NCBI RefSeq assembly: GCF_030149505.1
Contig: NZ_JASBRN010000012.1
Location: 62,001-126,000, forward strand
Origin: Nocardioides sp.
GTDB lineage: Bacteria > Actinomycetota > Actinomycetes > Propionibacteriales > Nocardioidaceae
Reading direction: 5' to 3'
Length of the DNA stretch: 64,000 nucleotides
Below are positions 28,339 to 63,657 of this stretch, piece after piece. The number at the start of each line of letters is the position of its first letter. Positions within the stretch are counted from its first letter, which is position 1. Made by a program: the position numbers and the translations under genes. The notes under the pieces are model-generated. The model did not search any database, was not told the origin of the DNA, and worked only from the letters and a program-made list of their open reading frames with translations.

Positions 28339-28794
28339 GTGAAGGACATCGACCCCTTCGACGACCGAGTCCGAGGTCCCGTGCTGTCGGTGCGGTTCGG
28401 CATCTCGCTGCTGCTGATCGCCCTCGGCATCGCGTGGATCGTCTACTACTACGTCGCGGTGCGCCCCGACCCCACGGTGCTCGACGCCACCGCGGGCTCC
28501 CCCGCCTTCATGGCCGACCTGGTCCGGTGGAACTACGTCATCGGCTTCGGCCTGTTCTTCCTCGGCCTGGCCGTCGCCGCGCACCCCTCGACCCCGCTGG
28601 GCCGGGGCCGGGGCGTGGTCGTCGGCATGCTGGGCTGCTTCGTCCTCGGCCTGCTGTGGATCTGCACGTTCTACGTGCTGGCCGACGGCACGCTCAACGA
28701 CGTACCGATCATGAACGACCTGCAGCAGTCCAACCTGTTCGTCGGCATCGCCTTCATGGCGGTCGGCTTCACCTACGCCACGCGGTGGGAGTGA
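28339..28794 (+). CDS. CrgA-like cell division protein, apparently internally duplicated
   Basis: LGIAWIVYYYVAV...LVRWNYVIGFGLFFLGLAVAAH and LGLLWICTFYVLA...QSNLFVGIAFMAVGFTYATRWE resemble two CrgA units; adjacent to the pknB/DUF881 locus. Confidence 0.75.
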   Translation: MKDIDPFDDRVRGPVLSVRFGISLLLIALGIAWIVYYYVAVRPDPTVLDATAGSPAFMADLVRWNYVIGFGLFFLGLAVAAHPSTPLGRGRGVVVGMLGCFVLGLLWICTFYVLADGTLNDVPIMNDLQQSNLFVGIAFMAVGFTYATRWE

Positions 28795-28834
28795 GCAGCA
28801 GTCGCGACCCTGGCCGGCTAATCATCGTCGGATA

Positions 28835-28863
28835 TTGCCTATAGGTTGTAGGTCCCGTACGGT
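28835..28863 (+). promoter_or_regulatory. Leaderless promoter for the FBP-domain gene
   Basis: TTGCCT-N17-TACGGT, then 7 nt to GTG at 28871. Confidence 0.6.
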
Positions 28864-28870
28864 CGAGCAC

Positions 28871-29356
28871 GTGGAGCCCCTCACCGAGCGCGAGATCCGT
28901 GCGTCCTTCGTCAACTGCACCCGCGGCGAGGTGTCGCGTCTCGCCGTCCCGCCGGTGGACGAGGTGGCCTGGTCCGGGCTCGACTTCCTCGGCTGGGTCG
29001 ACCCGAAGGCCCCGCAGCAAGCGGCAGTGGTGGTGCCGCACGACGGCACCGTGATCGGGATCAAGCTGCGTCGCAACACCCCCAGTGGCGCCGGTCGGCG
29101 GATGTGCTCGTGGTGCTGCACCGTGCACCCGGGCAGCGGGGTGTCGCTGATGGTGGCCAACCGCGCGGGCCGCGCCGGACGTGAGGGCAACACGACCGGC
29201 GTCGACGTCTGCGCGGACCTGCGCTGCTCCGACTACGCCCGCGGGCGCGCCGTCCCGGCAGCGGCAGACGTGGTTCGCGAGACGATCTCCCCGCAGCAGC
29301 GCTCCGACCGGCTGCGACGCAACCTCGCGACCTTCGTGCGTCGGACCCTGCGGTGA
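28871..29356 (+). CDS. FBP (EF-G-binding-like treble-clef) domain protein
   Basis: PLTEREIRASFVNCTRGEVSRLAVP...RRMCSWCCTVHPGSGVSLMVANRAGRAGREGNTTGVDVCADLRCSDY. Confidence 0.82.
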   Translation: MEPLTEREIRASFVNCTRGEVSRLAVPPVDEVAWSGLDFLGWVDPKAPQQAAVVVPHDGTVIGIKLRRNTPSGAGRRMCSWCCTVHPGSGVSLMVANRAGRAGREGNTTGVDVCADLRCSDYARGRAVPAAADVVRETISPQQRSDRLRRNLATFVRRTLR

Positions 29357-29928
29357 GTCGCGTCGGGCTGTCCCGGTCCGTGGTGCTCGACACCGCCGCC
29401 CGCCTGGCCGACCGGGACGGGCTCGGGGCGCTCACCGTCAGCGCGGTCGCCAGGGAGCTGGGGGTCCGGGCACCCAGCCTCTACTCCCACGTCCAGAACG
29501 CCGAGGACCTGCGCGCCGGCGTCAGCGCCGTCGCCCTGACCGAGCTCGCCGACCGGGTCGACCGGGCGCTCGCCGGCCTCGCCGGCCGGGACGCCCTCGG
29601 CGCCCTGGCCGACACCCACCGGCGCTACGCCCGCGAGCACCCCGGACGGTACGCCGCGGCCGGGGTGCTCGACCCCGCCTCGTCGCACGACCTGGTCCAG
29701 GTCGGCCGCCGGCACGCGGAGCAGTTGCTCGCGGTCCTGCGCGGGTACGCCGTCCCGCCCGAGGACCGGGTCCACGCCGTACGCCTGGTCGCCAGCGTCG
29801 TGCGGGGGTTCGTCGATCTCGAGGTCGGAGGCGCTCTCGCCGGCAGCGAGCCCCCCGCCGCGGAGTCCTGGCCGCGCGTGCTGGAACGGCTCGACCACGC
29901 CCTGCGGACCTGGGAGGCGCACCCGTGA
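29353..29928 (+). CDS. TetR/AcrR family regulator
   Basis: LSRSVVLDTAARLADRDGLGALTVSAVARELGVRAPSLYSHVQNAEDLRAGV. Confidence 0.88.
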   Translation: MSRVGLSRSVVLDTAARLADRDGLGALTVSAVARELGVRAPSLYSHVQNAEDLRAGVSAVALTELADRVDRALAGLAGRDALGALADTHRRYAREHPGRYAAAGVLDPASSHDLVQVGRRHAEQLLAVLRGYAVPPEDRVHAVRLVASVVRGFVDLEVGGALAGSEPPAAESWPRVLERLDHALRTWEAHP

Positions 29929-30650
29929 CCGCGCCCCCGGGACCGGCCCCCGAGGACAGGGCCGCCGAGGACAGGGCCGCCGAGGACGCTCTCCCCGTGC
30001 GACGCCGCGTCGTGGTCGTCGACGACGACGGCGTGGTGCGCTCGGGACTCGCGCTGATGTTGCGCGGCGTCGCGGACCTGGAGGTCGTGGGTGAGGCCGC
30101 GGACGGTCGCGCAGCGGTCCGGGTCGTGGAGGAGCAGCGACCCGACGTCGTGCTCATGGACATCCGGATGCCGCGGATGGACGGTCTCGAGGCCACCCGG
30201 GTGGTCATGGCACGGCCGCGACCCCCGCGGGTCCTCATCCTGACCACGTTCGAGGCGGACGCGTACGTGCTCGAGGCGCTGGCGGCCGGAGCCGACGGGT
30301 TCCTGCTCAAGGACACCGAGCCGGCCGGCATCGTGGACGCGGTCCGGAGGGTCGCGGCGGGGGAGCCGACGCTCTCCGCGTCGGTGATGCGGACCGTGCT
30401 CTCCACGCTGCGCGAGGACGGCCGCCGCGAGCGGACCCGCCAGGCGCGCCGCCGCCTCGACCGCCTCACCGAGCGCGAGCTCGAGATCGCCCTCGAGGTC
30501 GCGCGGGGGGCCGGCAACAACGAGATCGCCCGTCGTCTCCACCTCTCGGTCACCACGGTCAAGGGACACATCGCCCAGCTCTTCGCCAAGCTCGACGCGG
30601 TCAACCGGGTGCAGGTCGCGATCTGCGTGCACGACGCCGGCCTCGACTAG
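29925..30650 (+). CDS. LuxR/NarL-family response regulator
   Basis: RRRVVVVDDDGVVRSGLALMLRGVADLEVVGEA...DVVLMDIRMPRMDG...LTERELEIALEVARGAGNNEIARRLHLSVTTVKGHI. Confidence 0.93.
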   Translation: MTAPPGPAPEDRAAEDRAAEDALPVRRRVVVVDDDGVVRSGLALMLRGVADLEVVGEAADGRAAVRVVEEQRPDVVLMDIRMPRMDGLEATRVVMARPRPPRVLILTTFEADAYVLEALAAGADGFLLKDTEPAGIVDAVRRVAAGEPTLSASVMRTVLSTLREDGRRERTRQARRRLDRLTERELEIALEVARGAGNNEIARRLHLSVTTVKGHIAQLFAKLDAVNRVQVAICVHDAGLD

Positions 30651-30693
30651 CTCGCGCGACCCCGGGCCCACCCGGCCGGGCGCAGCACCGCGG

Positions 30694-31851
30694 TCAGACG
30701 GTCCACGGGACCCACACGCGCAGCACGAACTCTCCGTGCTCCGGGCCGTGGTCCAGGGTGCCGCCGGCCAGGTGGACCCGCTCGGTCAGCCCGACCAGGC
30801 CCAGCCCGGAGCCGGGCGTGGACGTCGGGCCGAAGCCGAGGCCGTTGCGCAGCACCAGCGTCAGTCCGGACGCGGGGGTGCCCTCGACCTCGACATGGAC
30901 CTCCGCGTCAGGGGCGTGCTTGCGGGCGTTCGTGAGCCCCTCCTGGAGGACCCGGTACGCCGTGCGCCCGACGCCGGCCGGGACCCGTTCGCGCGTGCCG
31001 TCCGCCAGCCCGTCGGCGAGCACGACCCGCATGCCGGTGGCGCGGGCCTCGGCGACCAAGTCCGGCAGGTCGGCGTACGCCGGCTGCGGCGTGTGCGGGA
31101 CCTCGCTGTCGCCCCGCAGCACGCCCAGCACGTCGCGGAGGTCGCCCAGCGCGTCGTGCGCGGAGGCCCGGATCCGCTCGGCACCGGCACGGACCTCCTC
31201 GTCCTCGACCTGCTCGCCGTACCCCAGGGCCCCGGCCTGCACGGCGATCTGGGTGATCCGGTGCGCCAGCACGTCGTGCATCTCCCGCGCGATGCGCGTG
31301 CGCTCCTCCCAGCGCGCACGGCTGACGCGCAGGTCGCGCTCGGCCTCGGCCACCTCGGCCCGGCGCCGCAGCGTCCACATCAGCTCCCGGCGCGATCCGA
31401 GGAACATGCCCCACGCGATCGTGGCCGAGACGAAGACGGCGTCGATGGGGACGCTCAGCCAGCGAGGGTCCAGCTGCGCCGACGGGTGCAGCGAGATCCA
31501 CACCTCACCGCTGGCCACGCTCAGCAGCCCGGCCGCCACGATCCGCCCCCGCCGGCGGCTCGTGGCCAGCGAGACCAGGGCCAGGACGGAAGCGCCGCCC
31601 GCCACCGCGCTGAAGGCCGCCAGGCAGATGGTCGCGAGGGCCACGCGCAGCGGTGCGCGCCGGCGGAACCAGACCAGGCCGAAGGCAACCAGGCCCAGCG
31701 CCAGGTCCCGCCAGCGCTCGGCCGGCTCCTGGTCGGGGAACACGGTCAGCCACGCGGTGAGGCTGAAGAGCCCGGCCACCGCCAACCGCCACGCCTGGCC
31801 ACTCCACCCCAGCGCGGGCTCCGCCGGGGCCGGGTCGTGCGCTCGGGTCAT
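30694..31851 (-). CDS. Sensor histidine kinase (HisKA_3 type)
   Basis: EERTRIAREMHDVLAHRITQIAVQAGAL...RTAYRVLQEGLTNARKHAP...GSGLGLVGLTERV. Confidence 0.93.
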   Translation of the reverse strand: MTRAHDPAPAEPALGWSGQAWRLAVAGLFSLTAWLTVFPDQEPAERWRDLALGLVAFGLVWFRRRAPLRVALATICLAAFSAVAGGASVLALVSLATSRRRGRIVAAGLLSVASGEVWISLHPSAQLDPRWLSVPIDAVFVSATIAWGMFLGSRRELMWTLRRRAEVAEAERDLRVSRARWEERTRIAREMHDVLAHRITQIAVQAGALGYGEQVEDEEVRAGAERIRASAHDALGDLRDVLGVLRGDSEVPHTPQPAYADLPDLVAEARATGMRVVLADGLADGTRERVPAGVGRTAYRVLQEGLTNARKHAPDAEVHVEVEGTPASGLTLVLRNGLGFGPTSTPGSGLGLVGLTERVHLAGGTLDHGPEHGEFVLRVWVPWTV

Positions 31852-31982
31852 GCTGCGACCCTAGGCGCCGACCGGCGGCCCGCGGACCCTGCCGGAGGTC
31901 GGCCCACCCCCTACCAAAGGACTGCCCAGGACGGGCTCGAGGTGCCGTGTGCGGCGTCCGGCGCCACGCCAGGCTGGAGCGC

Positions 31983-32930
31983 ATGATCGACGTCAGAGAA
32001 CTCACCCGCAGCTACGGCGCACACCGAGCGGTGGACGGCATCAGCTTCACCACCCGCCCCGGCCGGGTCACCGGCTTCCTCGGTCCCAACGGTGCCGGCA
32101 AGAGCACGGCGATGCGCATGATCATCGGCCTCACCGCCCCGACCAGCGGCACCGCCACCATCGGTGGCGTCGCCTACCAGGACATCGTCAACCCCGGGCG
32201 CCACGTCGGGGTCCTCCTCGACGCCGGCGCGCAGCACGACGGGCGGACCGGTCGGGAGATCCTCACGATCGGGGCGCAGACCATGAGGCTCCCCCGGTCG
32301 CGCGTGGACGAGATGCTCGCCACCGTCTCCCTGTCCGACGAAGAGGCCCACCGCCGCTTCCGGGACTACTCGCTGGGCATGAAGCAGCGACTGGGCATCG
32401 CCCACGCGCTGCTCGGCGACCCGGCCGTGCTCATCCTCGACGAGCCCGCCAACGGGCTCGACCCGGCCGGTATCCGCTGGATGCGCGACCTCCTGAAAGG
32501 CTACGCCCGCCGCGGCGGCACCGTGCTCCTGTCCAGCCACCTGCTCCACGAGGTCGAGCTGGTCGCCGACGACCTGGTCCTCATCGGCCGCGGGCGGATC
32601 GTCGCCCAGGGGGACCTGGCCAGCCTCGGCTCCGGCGACGGCCGCGGGGCCGCGCTGGTCACGGCGCAGGACAACGACGCCCTCGCCGCGGCCCTGGCCC
32701 GAGAGGGCCTGCGCAGCGAGCCCGAGGGGACCGGCCTGCGCGTCCACGCCGGCACCGCCGACGTCGGCCGGGTCGCGGCCGAGCACCGCCTGGTGCTCAC
32801 CGACCTGCGCAGCGGCGCCCAGGGACTCGAGGACCTCTTCCTCGAGCTCACCGCCTCCACCCAGCGCGAGGCCCCGTCGACCACCGACGGCCACGCCACC
32901 ACCTCCACGACGAAGGGAGCTCCCCGATGA
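31983..32930 (+). CDS. ABC transporter ATP-binding protein
   Basis: FLGPNGAGKSTAMRMIIGLTAPTSG...YSLGMKQRLGIAHALLGDPAVLILDEPANGLDPAGI. Confidence 0.95.
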   Translation: MIDVRELTRSYGAHRAVDGISFTTRPGRVTGFLGPNGAGKSTAMRMIIGLTAPTSGTATIGGVAYQDIVNPGRHVGVLLDAGAQHDGRTGREILTIGAQTMRLPRSRVDEMLATVSLSDEEAHRRFRDYSLGMKQRLGIAHALLGDPAVLILDEPANGLDPAGIRWMRDLLKGYARRGGTVLLSSHLLHEVELVADDLVLIGRGRIVAQGDLASLGSGDGRGAALVTAQDNDALAAALAREGLRSEPEGTGLRVHAGTADVGRVAAEHRLVLTDLRSGAQGLEDLFLELTASTQREAPSTTDGHATTSTTKGAPR

Positions 32931-33757
32931 GCACCGGTCCCACCTCAGCCACCGCTGCCAGCACGCCGAGCGGCAGCGCCGGCACCACCGCCACCCTGCC
33001 GCGCCTGGACTCCTCCGGCACCCCGGCGGTCGGCCTCTCGACGCTGGTCCCCGTGGAGCTGCGCAAGGCCGTGGACACCCGGGCCGGCCGGTGGCTGGTC
33101 GCCGCGATCCTGGCCCTGACCGCCGCGGCCGTCGCCCTGGTGGTGGCCGTCAGCGACGACGGCGAGCGCACCATGGCGGACCTGCTGTCCTTCGCCGCGA
33201 CGCCGCAGGGCCTCCTGCTGCCGGTCCTGGGCATCCTGCTCGTCACGGGCGAGTGGTCCCAACGCACCGCCCTGGTGACCTTCGCTCTGACGCCCTCGCG
33301 GTCGCAGGTGGTCTCGGCCAAGCTCCTGGCCGCGCTGCTGCTGGCGCTCGCCGCGGTCGTGGGTGCGATCCTCGCGGCCGCGACGGCCACCGCCGTGAGC
33401 GGGACCGAGGACGGCTTCGCCGACGTCGGCGTGACGACGATCCTGCTCTTCGCCGCCCTGCAGCTGCTCAACGTGGTGATGGGGGTCGCCTTCGGACTCC
33501 TCCTGCTCCGCACGCCGACGGCCATCAGCGTGTTCTTCATCCTGCCCGCCGTGTCCTCGATCCTCTTCACCACGGTGCCGGCGCTCGCCGACCTGGCCCC
33601 GTGGCTGGACATCCAGACCGCGCAGATGCCGTTGGCCAACGGCGACTTCTCCCTGACCGGGGAGCAGCTGGGCCAGGTCGCGGTGACGGGCCTGCTGTGG
33701 GTCGGGCTGCCGCTGCTGGCCGGTTGGTGGCGCGCCACCCGGGCCGAGGTGAAGTGA
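32927..33757 (+). CDS. ABC transporter permease (ABC-2 type)
   Basis: Multi-TM ORF coupled to the ATPase gene (ATGA overlap). Confidence 0.88.
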   Translation: MSTGPTSATAASTPSGSAGTTATLPRLDSSGTPAVGLSTLVPVELRKAVDTRAGRWLVAAILALTAAAVALVVAVSDDGERTMADLLSFAATPQGLLLPVLGILLVTGEWSQRTALVTFALTPSRSQVVSAKLLAALLLALAAVVGAILAAATATAVSGTEDGFADVGVTTILLFAALQLLNVVMGVAFGLLLLRTPTAISVFFILPAVSSILFTTVPALADLAPWLDIQTAQMPLANGDFSLTGEQLGQVAVTGLLWVGLPLLAGWWRATRAEVK

Positions 33758-34764
33758 TGGCCCACCACCGCGGGTCCCCCGCCCGGCACCACGCCATCGG
33801 GCGCCGCCGCTTCCGTCGTACGGCGCTGGCGACCGCCGTGGGCATCGGTCTGGCCCTGACCGGCTGCTCGGCCGCCGGCGACGGGGGCGGGTCGCGCGCC
33901 GCCGACGGCACGGCCGCGTCCACGCCCCTCTCCACGACCGCCTCCACGACCGCCGGGGCTTGCGTGAGCGAGCAGGACCTCGCGGCCCGCTTCGGTCGGC
34001 TGGAGGCGGAGCGCGATGTCCGCGTCGGCGTCCACCTCCTCGACACCGGGACGGGGGTCGAGCTCTCCCACCGGGGCGGGGAACGGTTCGCGTTCGCCTC
34101 GACGATCAAGGCGCTCGCCGCCGCGGTGGTGCTCGACCGGCTCTCGACCCGGGAGCTGGGGCGCCGGTTGCGGTGGACCGAGGACGAGCTCGTGCCCTAC
34201 TCCCCGGTCACCGAGCAGCACGTCGCCGACGGGCTCACGGTGCGGGAGGTGCTCGACGCGGCGGTCACGGTCAGCGACAACACCGCGGCCAACCTGCTGC
34301 TGGACGTCCTGGGGGGTCCGCAGGTCCTGGACCGGGCGCTGGACGAGGTCGGCGACACCACGACCCTCGTGGTGCGCCGCGAGCCCGAGCTGAACGACTA
34401 CGCCCCGGACGACACGCGGGACACCACGACCCCGCGGGCGCTCGCCGAGAGCCTGGCTGCCTTCGCGATCGGAGGGGAGCTCGCGGCGGCCGACGAACGC
34501 GCGCTGAGGTCGCTGCTGTGGCGCAACACCACGGGCGACGACCTCGTCCGGGCGGTCGTCCCCGACGGCTGGCGCGTCGGCGACAAGACCGGCACCGCGT
34601 CGTACGGCACCCGCAACGACGTCGCCGTCCTCACCCCGCCCGGGCGTGAACCGCTCGTCCTGGCGGTGATGACGCGCCACGCCGACCCGGACGCCGAGCC
34701 CGACGACACCGCCGTCGCGGAGGCGGCGCGGATCGCCCTCGAGGGGCTCTGCCTCGGCGGGTAG
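33757..34764 (+). CDS. Class A beta-lactamase (lipoprotein/secreted)
   Basis: Signal GIGLALTGCSA; active-site FASTIKAL (SxxK), VSDNTAAN (SDN), GDKTGTASYG (KTG). Confidence 0.92.
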   Translation: MAHHRGSPARHHAIGRRRFRRTALATAVGIGLALTGCSAAGDGGGSRAADGTAASTPLSTTASTTAGACVSEQDLAARFGRLEAERDVRVGVHLLDTGTGVELSHRGGERFAFASTIKALAAAVVLDRLSTRELGRRLRWTEDELVPYSPVTEQHVADGLTVREVLDAAVTVSDNTAANLLLDVLGGPQVLDRALDEVGDTTTLVVRREPELNDYAPDDTRDTTTPRALAESLAAFAIGGELAAADERALRSLLWRNTTGDDLVRAVVPDGWRVGDKTGTASYGTRNDVAVLTPPGREPLVLAVMTRHADPDAEPDDTAVAEAARIALEGLCLGG

Positions 34765-34819
34765 CAGCGGTCCGGCCGGTCGGTCCCGGCAGGCCTGCGG
34801 CCAGGGAGGTTCTGCACAG

Positions 34820-34885
34820 CTGGGGACAGTCCTGTGGACGAACTACACGCGTGTAGTTATCCCCAGTTCTCTCCACACCTGTGCA
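34820..34885. promoter_or_regulatory. DnaA-box-like cluster with an 18-bp palindrome
   Basis: TGTGGACGA (34833-34841), AACTACACGCGTGTAGTT (34841-34858), TTATCCCCA (34857-34865), then TCTCCACACCTGTGCAC. Confidence 0.5.
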
Positions 34886-34974
34886 CTCACCGCGGCTGGT
34901 CGCGGCCGCTCACCCGGGGCGGCGCGCGTGAGGTTCAGCGGCGCTCCGGGTGGACCTCACGGTGACGGGGACGG

Positions 34975-35880
34975 TCAGGCCGTCGCGAGCCGAGCGAGCA
35001 TCGCCAGCGCGAGCACGAGACCGACGAGCACCAGCCCGCCGACCTGGTACGCCGTGCGGCGCTTGCCTCGGGGGGCGTAGACCAGCAGCGCGGCGACCAC
35101 GAGGCCGCCCGCGAAGCCGCCGAGGTGGCCCTGCCAGGAGATGTTGGGGAAGGCGAAGGTGATGAAGAGGTTCACCGCGAGCAGCACGCCGATCTGGCGC
35201 AGGTCGCCGCCGGTCTTAAGGACACAGATCGTTAAGGCGGCCAAGAGTCCATAGACGGCTCCAGATGCGCCAAGCGTCGGCTGAAATTCGTAGGACAACC
35301 ACAGGATCGCCGCCGACCCCGACAGCAGGCACATGAAATAGAGAGCAAGGAAACGAGCGCGTCCGAAGACTTGCTCCAACTGCGGGCCCAGGATCCAAAT
35401 TGCAAGCATGTTGAACGCGATATGTACGAAACTGATGTGCGCAAAGCCAGAGGTCAGCACTTGCCAGTAAGCACCGTCCGTAAAGCCAGAGATAAAGCCT
35501 CCAGCAGGACAGGATTGCTCGGACTGAGCAAAGTCCGGCAAGCAGTAGCCACGAGCTCTCAACGCGATCAAATCAACGAGCCGACTGCCACCACCGCCGG
35601 TGAGCGCGATCGCGAGCCACACGCCGACGTTGACCGCGATCAGCCCGATGGAGGTCGCGCTGGCGTCGCTGGGCCGCATGCCGCCGTACGTCGTGCGGCC
35701 CGAGCGGGTCTGCTTCGCCCCCTGGGCGACGCAGTCGGGGCACTGGAATCCCACGGCGGCGTCGCGCATGCAGTCGGGGCAGATGGGCCGCTCGCAGCGC
35801 TGGCAGCGGATGTGGGACTCCCGACCGGGGTGCCGGTAGCAGACAGGCACCCCGGTCTCGGGAGTCGGAGGCTGGCTCAC
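34975..35880 (-). CDS. Rhomboid family intramembrane serine protease with N-terminal zinc ribbon
   Basis: CYRHPGRESHIRCQRCERPICPDCMRDAAVGFQCPDC...HIAFNMLAIWILGPQLEQVFGR...GASGAVYGLLAA...QGHLGGFAGG. Confidence 0.93.
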   Translation of the reverse strand: MSQPPTPETGVPVCYRHPGRESHIRCQRCERPICPDCMRDAAVGFQCPDCVAQGAKQTRSGRTTYGGMRPSDASATSIGLIAVNVGVWLAIALTGGGGSRLVDLIALRARGYCLPDFAQSEQSCPAGGFISGFTDGAYWQVLTSGFAHISFVHIAFNMLAIWILGPQLEQVFGRARFLALYFMCLLSGSAAILWLSYEFQPTLGASGAVYGLLAALTICVLKTGGDLRQIGVLLAVNLFITFAFPNISWQGHLGGFAGGLVVAALLVYAPRGKRRTAYQVGGLVLVGLVLALAMLARLATA

Positions 35881-56818: not shown

Positions 56819-57253
56819 GGTGTCAGTCCTTCGGCAGGAGGGGCGCGGGGCCGGGCAGGGGGAGCCGGGCGTGGGGCACGGCAGGGGACCCGGGGTGACG
56901 GGGAGTCGCATCCTGCCACGCGCCCCCACCGGAGGGGAGCGCTGGTGGGTTTTCCCCAGGGAGGGGCCCGGGAGGAGTTCCACGGGGAATCGGGATGGTC
57001 AAGGGTCCAGAGGAGTCATAGGAGCTGTGGACTCTGTGGACGATCGGCGTTCGTGCAGGTCGTGCGGAGGAAAGCGAGTGCACAGGGGGTGGGGAGGAGT
57101 GGTGTGGTTCCGGGCCCCGGCCTGTGCAGTGGGGAAGGGGTCGTGGACGGGACGCGATCCGGTCCACAGATCCTCCCCGTGTAATTCGGGGTGGATCCGC
57201 TCGTCGTCCACAGGCACGGACGACACGTTCCGGGCCAGGACGAGTCGACCCGT
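56819..57253. other. Putative oriC region (dnaN-dnaA intergenic)
   Basis: DnaA-box-like 9-mers TGTGGACTC (57026), TGTGGACGA (57035), CGGTCCACA (57160), TCGTCCACA (57204), in the usual actinobacterial dnaA-dnaN origin location. Confidence 0.75.
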
Positions 57254-62542: not shown

Positions 62543-63657
62543 CCGGAGAGGGTCCTGTGCCGAGCGGGGACACGGATCCTCGTGCCGAGTTTTCCACCGG
62601 TCGTCCCACGCTCGACCAGCCGAGTTCTCCACAGATCGAGGAAAGTTCTCCACAGGTGTCTGTTTCACGTGAAACATCCGGCGAAGCCGGCAACAGCGGC
62701 GGAGGCGGGCCGTTCGCGGTGCGCACGGCGGCAGAGCTCGCCGAGATGGAGCCGGTCGAGAGCGACGACCTCACGCCCCTGGCTCGCGCGACGGAGTTCT
62801 CCTTGTCGCTGCGCAGCAGTGCTGCCCGGCGCTCCCCCTCTCCCCGGCCCGTGGCCACCCGCGTCTTCGTGGTCGCCAACCAGAAGGGCGGGGTCGGCAA
62901 GACCACCTCGACGGTCAACGTCGCGGCAGGACTCGCGTCCCTCGGGCAGCGCGTGCTCGTGATCGACCTGGACCCGCAGGGCAACGCCTCCACGGCGCTC
63001 AACATCGAGCACCGGCGCGGCGTCCCCTCGACGTACGACGCGCTGGTCGACGGCGTGCCCCTCACCGACGTCGTGGCGCCGTGCCCGGACGTCGACGGGC
63101 TCTGGGTGGTCCCGGCGACCATCGACCTGGCCGGCGCCGAGATCGAGCTGGTCTCGGTGGTCGCCCGCGAGGGCCGGCTCCGCAAGGCGATCCAGGGGCA
63201 CCCGTGGGTCGGGACCGCCGAGGCCGTGGGCGAGGACCGCTTCGACTACGTCCTCATCGACTGCCCGCCGTCGCTGGGCCTGCTGACGCTCAACGCGCTC
63301 GTGGCCGGCGAGGAGATGCTCATCCCGATCCAGGCCGAGTACTACGCGCTCGAGGGCCTGGGCCAGCTGCTCGAGACCGTCGACATGGTCCGGGCGCACC
63401 TCAACCCGTCCCTGGCGGTCTCCACCATCCTGCTGACGATGTACGACGCGCGCACCCGGCTCGCTGCCGGTGTCGCCGAGGAGGTGCGCGACCACTTCGG
63501 GGACCAGGTGCTCCGCACCGCCATCCCCCGCTCGGTGCGGGTGTCCGAGGCGCCGTCGTACGCCCAGACAGTGATGACCTACGACCCGGGGTCCCCGGGA
63601 GCGCTGTCCTACCTCGAGGCAGCGCGGGAGATCGCCGAGCGAGGAGCCCCCCAGTGA
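62539..63657 (+). CDS. parA: Chromosome partitioning ATPase ParA
   Basis: RVFVVANQKGGVGKTTSTVNVAAGLASLGQRVLVIDLDPQGNASTALNI; GTG at 62539 overlaps the rsmG stop. Confidence 0.96.
   Translation: MTGEGPVPSGDTDPRAEFSTGRPTLDQPSSPQIEESSPQVSVSRETSGEAGNSGGGGPFAVRTAAELAEMEPVESDDLTPLARATEFSLSLRSSAARRSPSPRPVATRVFVVANQKGGVGKTTSTVNVAAGLASLGQRVLVIDLDPQGNASTALNIEHRRGVPSTYDALVDGVPLTDVVAPCPDVDGLWVVPATIDLAGAEIELVSVVAREGRLRKAIQGHPWVGTAEAVGEDRFDYVLIDCPPSLGLLTLNALVAGEEMLIPIQAEYYALEGLGQLLETVDMVRAHLNPSLAVSTILLTMYDARTRLAAGVAEEVRDHFGDQVLRTAIPRSVRVSEAPSYAQTVMTYDPGSPGALSYLEAAREIAERGAPQ
62588..62655. repeat. AGTTCTCCACAG repeats within the parA 5' coding region
   Basis: AGTTTTCCACCG (62588), AGTTCTCCACAG (62623-62634), AGTTCTCCACAG (62644-62655). 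Confidence 0.75.
62661..62676. promoter_or_regulatory. parS site inside parA coding sequence
   Basis: TGTTTCACGTGAAACA, perfect consensus. Confidence 0.97.

Follow-up and report, generated by a model that had tools for sequence, protein, structure and literature searches.

A short intergenic element that combines a palindrome with a series of DnaA-box-like 9-mers lies between two convergent genes of a Nocardioides sp. genome. The analyzed DNA (hereafter the window) is a stretch of 64,000 nucleotides from contig NZ_JASBRN010000012.1. The element occupies positions 34810–34888, in the gap between a beta-lactamase gene on the plus strand that ends at 34764 (Pfam beta-lactamase2) and a rhomboid protease gene on the minus strand (34975–35850, PF01694). 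The gap between dnaA and dnaN is about 22 kb away in the window, in agreement with the distance to oriC given in an earlier sequence-based description of this locus (the original prediction). We propose, with a probability of about 0.6, that this origin-proximal element, which is conserved across the class of the actinobacteria, serves to control DnaA.

At the center of the element is a perfect 18-bp palindrome (AACTACACGCGTGTAGTT, 34841–34858) that is conserved in relatives and has YNACACNNGTGTNR as its class-wide core. Boxes were scored against the relaxed nine-position consensus T[TC]NTCC[AC]CA. On the left side, the inner box TCGTCCACA (34833–34841, minus strand; TGTGGACGA on the plus strand) matches all nine positions, and the middle box CTGTCCCCA (34821–34829, minus strand; TGGGGACAG on the plus strand) and the outer box TTCTGCACA (34810–34818, plus strand) match eight. 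The middle box stands head-to-head with the outer box at a distance of 2 bp and in tandem with the inner box at 3 bp; the outer box is weak in this genome and sits at the conserved outer position, about −39/−40 from the palindrome center. On the right side, the inner box TTATCCCCA (34857–34865, plus strand, 9/9) shares its first TT with the last TT of the palindrome, as expected from the claim that the palindrome is fused to a DnaA-like 9-mer. The right middle box CTCTCCACA (34869–34877, plus strand) matches eight positions, and the right outer position TGTGCACTC (34880–34888, minus strand) is degenerate and recognizable as a box only in relatives. The arms CTGGGGA (34820–34826) and TCCCCAG (34860–34866) and the motif TCTCCACACCTGTGCAC (34870–34886) complete the inventory; all motifs listed in the original prediction were found where it had placed them. 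The element as a whole is close to two-fold symmetric, with 26-nt inverted arms that are 77% complementary.

The box shared with the oriC region could also be located: the 9-mer of the left inner box recurs in the dnaA–dnaN gap at 57035 (minus strand) and 57204 (plus strand). With up to three mismatches over 16 bp, the palindrome occurs once in the 64 kb, compared with 0.09 expected occurrences, and its exact sequence is present as a single copy in the 4.17-Mb genome. With two full relaxed matches and three matches at 8/9, the element qualifies as a noncoding group of three or more DnaA boxes away from oriC, a trait of the datA/DARS-like functional class. The window contains 14 relaxed boxes, compared with 4.4 expected from shuffles, and no strict box (TTRTCCACA). 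Since the box density in this window alone is only mildly unusual, the comparison across genomes has to carry the case.

Absence of the palindrome or the boxes from the syntenic position had been named in advance as grounds for abandoning the prediction. When this comparison was run, the element was found to be clearly conserved in both the genus and the class. The palindrome with at most two mismatches is present in 29 of 59 relatives and absent from the backwards-read control. These sites fall into two classes. In type A (13 loci), TGTGGATAA-like and TTATCCACA-like 9-mers surround the palindrome; 12 of these loci lie 3′ of the rhomboid gene, mostly with the C-terminus of crgA opposite, and the thirteenth (L027) is flanked by crgA and a pknB-like gene. 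Type B sites (AACTACA-N4-TGTAGTT) have no DnaA boxes and lie close to the start of other genes; several of these genes encode secreted wall-active proteins with an Rv2525c-like domain and a peptidoglycan-binding domain. A sequence-only model (R1) built from 12 type A elements matched 149 of 150 genus genomes (E ≤ 0.1), a count in which the 12 training loci match by construction and some weak matches, inspected in part, may represent other sites. The match to the window (34811–34883, minus strand, 70.5 bits, E = 4.5e-21) is likewise by construction, since the window supplied one of the 12 sequences; the next-best match in the same genome has E = 0.008.

Across the class, the same model matched 194 of 297 genomes (E ≤ 0.1). 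All but a handful of the 60 loci that were inspected adjoin ppiA, the rhomboid gene, crgA, or the sortase-like neighbor of crgA; the exceptions include a site upstream of dnaA (L106) and a site in a whiB promoter (L167). A position-blind pattern consisting of two tandem boxes, one opposed box, and one palindrome half gave 56 matches in a scan of 85,462 species, all of them actinobacterial by title, including Corynebacterium, Mycobacterium, Gordonia, Rhodococcus, Micrococcus, Jiangella, and Microbacteriaceae. When the neighboring genes were searched with profiles, rhomboid, ppiA, or crgA turned up no more than 1.4 kb away from 51 of these matches. The other five (L230, L232, L240, L251, and L258) carry the full module in loci without any of the three genes as fetched, and represent additional or relocated copies in Mycolicibacterium, Gordonia, Mycobacterium, Propionicimonas, and a Propionibacteriaceae bin. 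The pattern gave no match in viral contigs that would point to a virus-borne copy.

For an unbiased sample, we took one genome per family (n = 45), selected by a profile match to crgA and not by the element, and determined how many boxes lie in the 700 bp 3′ of this gene. This region contains 4.77 boxes, compared with 1.60 on the upstream side of the gene and 1.56 when the sequence is reversed, and at least three boxes fall within 60 bp in 31 of the 45 families, compared with none of 45 in the reversed control. The element is retained in genomes of only 1.3–1.5 Mb and in genomes where crgA has moved kilobases away. Given the model matches in genus and class, the position-blind scan, and the per-family box counts, a chance origin of the cluster is excluded.

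The rhomboid gene is the 3′ neighbor of the element in most relatives, and crgA is its usual second convergent neighbor. In the window, crgA (28339–28791, plus strand, PF06781) is displaced by about 6 kb: a block coding for a histidine kinase, an ABC transporter, and the class A beta-lactamase (28791–34764) separates two features that adjoin in relatives. The cyclophilin gene ppiA and the genes for DnaA and DnaN were also identified in the window by Pfam. On the far side of dnaA, the 9-mer TTCTCCACA occurs twice in identical form, 21 bp apart (62625–62654, plus strand). In the 39 genomes that have dnaA and the element on the same contig, the distance between the two, computed by hand, ranges from 9 to 56 kb.

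The boxes keep a fixed register to the palindrome. This geometry was derived from 157 deduplicated elements that had been chosen for having a palindrome together with two or more boxes, and the counts are therefore descriptive. The inner box lies flush against the palindrome, at −16/−17 from its center on the minus strand in 118 elements, and the outer box lies at −39/−40 on the plus strand in 96. The middle box is found at −26/−27 (plus) or −28 to −30 (minus), and a mirror set lies to the right of the palindrome, where the outer position (+30/31) is a box in 52 elements. Neighboring boxes are either head-to-head with a gap of 1–2 bp or in tandem with a gap of 3–4 bp, and other arrangements are rare. 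On average, an element contains 4.14 boxes, compared with 0.64 in reversed elements. Up to three box-like 9-mers, spaced by about one helical turn with one opposed and the rest in tandem, line up against the palindrome, and in this genus the triad is repeated mirror-wise on its other side.

The palindrome also occurs at other sites. The exact sequence WTACACNNGTGTAW is present in 20 of 24 small genomes (1.2–2.2 Mb) of one family (f29), mostly as a single copy. Five of the 20 loci inspected are the rhomboid-side element, and about 13–14 immediately precede a WhiB-family gene and overlap a promoter-like −10; whiB promoters of other families keep the palindrome or one of its halves. From this distribution we infer that the palindrome is the site of a dimeric DNA-binding protein with several targets, and at the element it would probably bind this second protein besides DnaA. 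Promoters of whiB across the class (L197–L222) have TTGAC-N17-TGTAAT in common, with a conserved GTGT-containing segment downstream. Palindromes similar to AACTACA-N4-TGTAGTT precede genes for secreted or wall-active proteins (L002, 1501–1518; L287 and L288, about 1503–1518; C6:52545, C14:31004, and C28:11746 in the same genome as the window); the TGTGAC/GTTACC repeats that come after them are possible sites for MtrA. A weaker site in this genome (C1:2047–2075; about 1500–1545 of L284) precedes nrdR-nrdJ, which includes a class II ribonucleotide reductase; here, the DnaA-like box TGTGGATAA is joined to the degenerate palindrome CTACATCCGTGTAA and the NrdR-box-like CTACTAGATGTAG.

Several known regulators were considered as binders of the palindrome. 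An NrdR box was rejected, as the palindrome core does not show the NrdR pattern by eye. The WhiA motif GACAC occurs in some palindrome halves only. Known MtrA sites are direct repeats, and such repeats occur near the promoter copies but not in the crgA-linked element. In Streptomyces, BldD and BldM recognize palindromes with TNAC/GTNA-type halves, and whiB is a target of both (PMC4151990, PMC4125116). The palindrome described here resembles these sites in its halves (CTAC in this genus) and in its occurrence at whiB. However, its spacing of TNAC-N6-GTNA differs from the BldD box (TNAC-N5-GTNA) and from the BldM Group I site TCACcCgnncGgGTGA, which has N8 between TCAC and GTGA, and both proteins were rejected because the spacing does not fit.

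DnaA-box clusters close to oriC are already known, Streptomyces included. According to citing papers (PMC4585315, PMC5742627), Smulczyk-Krawczyszyn et al. 2006 (J Bacteriol 188:6184) described such origin-proximal clusters in S. coelicolor. One of the published clusters may be the present locus, and the names of these clusters suggest that it might be. Family f22, inferred to be Streptomyces, has a box cluster in the same rhomboid–crgA gap at about 22–23 kb from dnaA, with a degenerate palindrome. In the largely open-access literature searched, we found no description of a class-wide location next to crgA, of the fixed geometry of the triad, or of the abutting palindrome, and nothing on the palindrome sequence or on a crgA–rhomboid intergenic region in connection with DnaA. 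Clusters near oriC of S. coelicolor and Bacillus subtilis repress untimely initiation (PMC4585315, PMC5742627). In E. coli, datA is likewise a noncoding DnaA-box cluster; its dosage counters reinitiation, and it combines essential boxes of one direction with one accessory-protein site, for IHF (PMC5742627). The E. coli DARS loci have a three-box core with fixed spacing, and DARS2 depends on accessory-protein sites (PMC5742627). Read directly from the E. coli sequence, both DARS1 and DARS2 have the core I(+) N5 II(−) N3 III(−).

We surmise that DnaA would bind the phased boxes cooperatively, that a dimeric partner on the palindrome would shape or gate the resulting complex, and that this complex would alter the amount or the nucleotide state of free DnaA. 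The phasing of the boxes, their strict orientation, and their retention in streamlined genomes argue for such a DnaA assembly. As the site is replicated shortly after initiation, its most likely effect would be a datA-like decrease in initiation-competent DnaA that blocks untimely reinitiation; the short distance to oriC and the precedents in S. coelicolor and B. subtilis also lead us to rank titration or inactivation above reactivation. The main variant is a DARS-like site, at which the triad would promote ADP release from DnaA, regenerate ATP-DnaA, and raise the initiation potential. The actinobacterial triads do share the DARS topology of one box opposed to a tandem pair, with a tandem gap of 3–4 bp close to the 3 bp of DARS, and the essential boxes of datA all point the same way (PMC5742627). 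We nevertheless consider reactivation rather unlikely: the head-to-head gap is 1–2 bp instead of 5 bp, and a position near the origin suits a brake better than a reactivator. DARS has IHF/Fis sites where this element has an abutting palindrome, and its neighboring genes are different. Anatomy and conservation partly support the DnaA regulatory locus suggested in the original prediction and fit titration and reactivation alike. The operator of another factor, which had been offered as the alternative, is probably correct together with the DnaA-regulatory locus, because the palindrome against which the triads lie is found in promoters as well.

As an explanation of its own, an operator through which a transcription factor acts on the neighboring genes, with the TCCACA repeats incidental or part of its site, is improbable. 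Recurrence of the palindrome in promoters (whiB in the small f29 genomes, secreted and wall-hydrolase genes in this genus) speaks for this explanation, but the gap is 3′–3′ and no promoter-like site was found in it, the promoter copies lack the triad, and the triad is conserved more broadly than the palindrome. Still less probable is a structural or segregation site, where DnaA and the palindrome-binding protein would organize or position the origin region and leave DnaA itself unregulated. A unique, origin-proximal site between convergent genes in nearly all genus genomes would suit such a role, but the sequence is unlike the parS consensus TGTTTCACGTGAAACA. A transcription terminator or structured RNA between the convergent genes is very unlikely. 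Both strands of the window element have more stable predicted folds than shuffled sequences (z = −2.3 and −4.3), but none of 11 predicted pairs has a compensatory change, and in other families the folds are unremarkable (z about −1.1 in L183 and L262). The original prediction had also argued against a terminator from the lack of a T-run; indeed, a search of the gap for a GC hairpin followed by a T-run matched nothing, and no Rfam family scored above gathering threshold in the element.

Several observations weigh against an origin-proximal DnaA-control site. Three of the boxes in the window (TTCTGCACA, CTGTCCCCA, and CTCTCCACA) are degenerate, and 14 of the 45 families have no three-box cluster within 700 bp of crgA, which reflects displaced genes or real loss; the genome studied here is among the 14 because its crgA is displaced. 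The boxes are opposed, unlike the unidirectional essential boxes of datA, and no search for an IHF site was made. The element might owe its place near oriC to inheritance along with the neighboring genes, and DnaA binding is predicted from box anatomy and conservation.

The conservation of this arrangement suggests an ancient switch that tunes DnaA. A tentative and less probable extension is an ancestral replication checkpoint, in which the fixed triad would be fused to the operator of a cell-cycle factor acting on whiB, and this one protein would couple DnaA activity near oriC to genes for division and wall remodeling. Little is understood of how actinobacteria, including mycobacteria and corynebacteria, keep DnaA in check, and the accessory factors of E. 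coli are not simply transferable. A short element at one place in most families and in streamlined genomes provides one defined target for study, and its palindrome is a bait for a partner protein that may connect replication with division.
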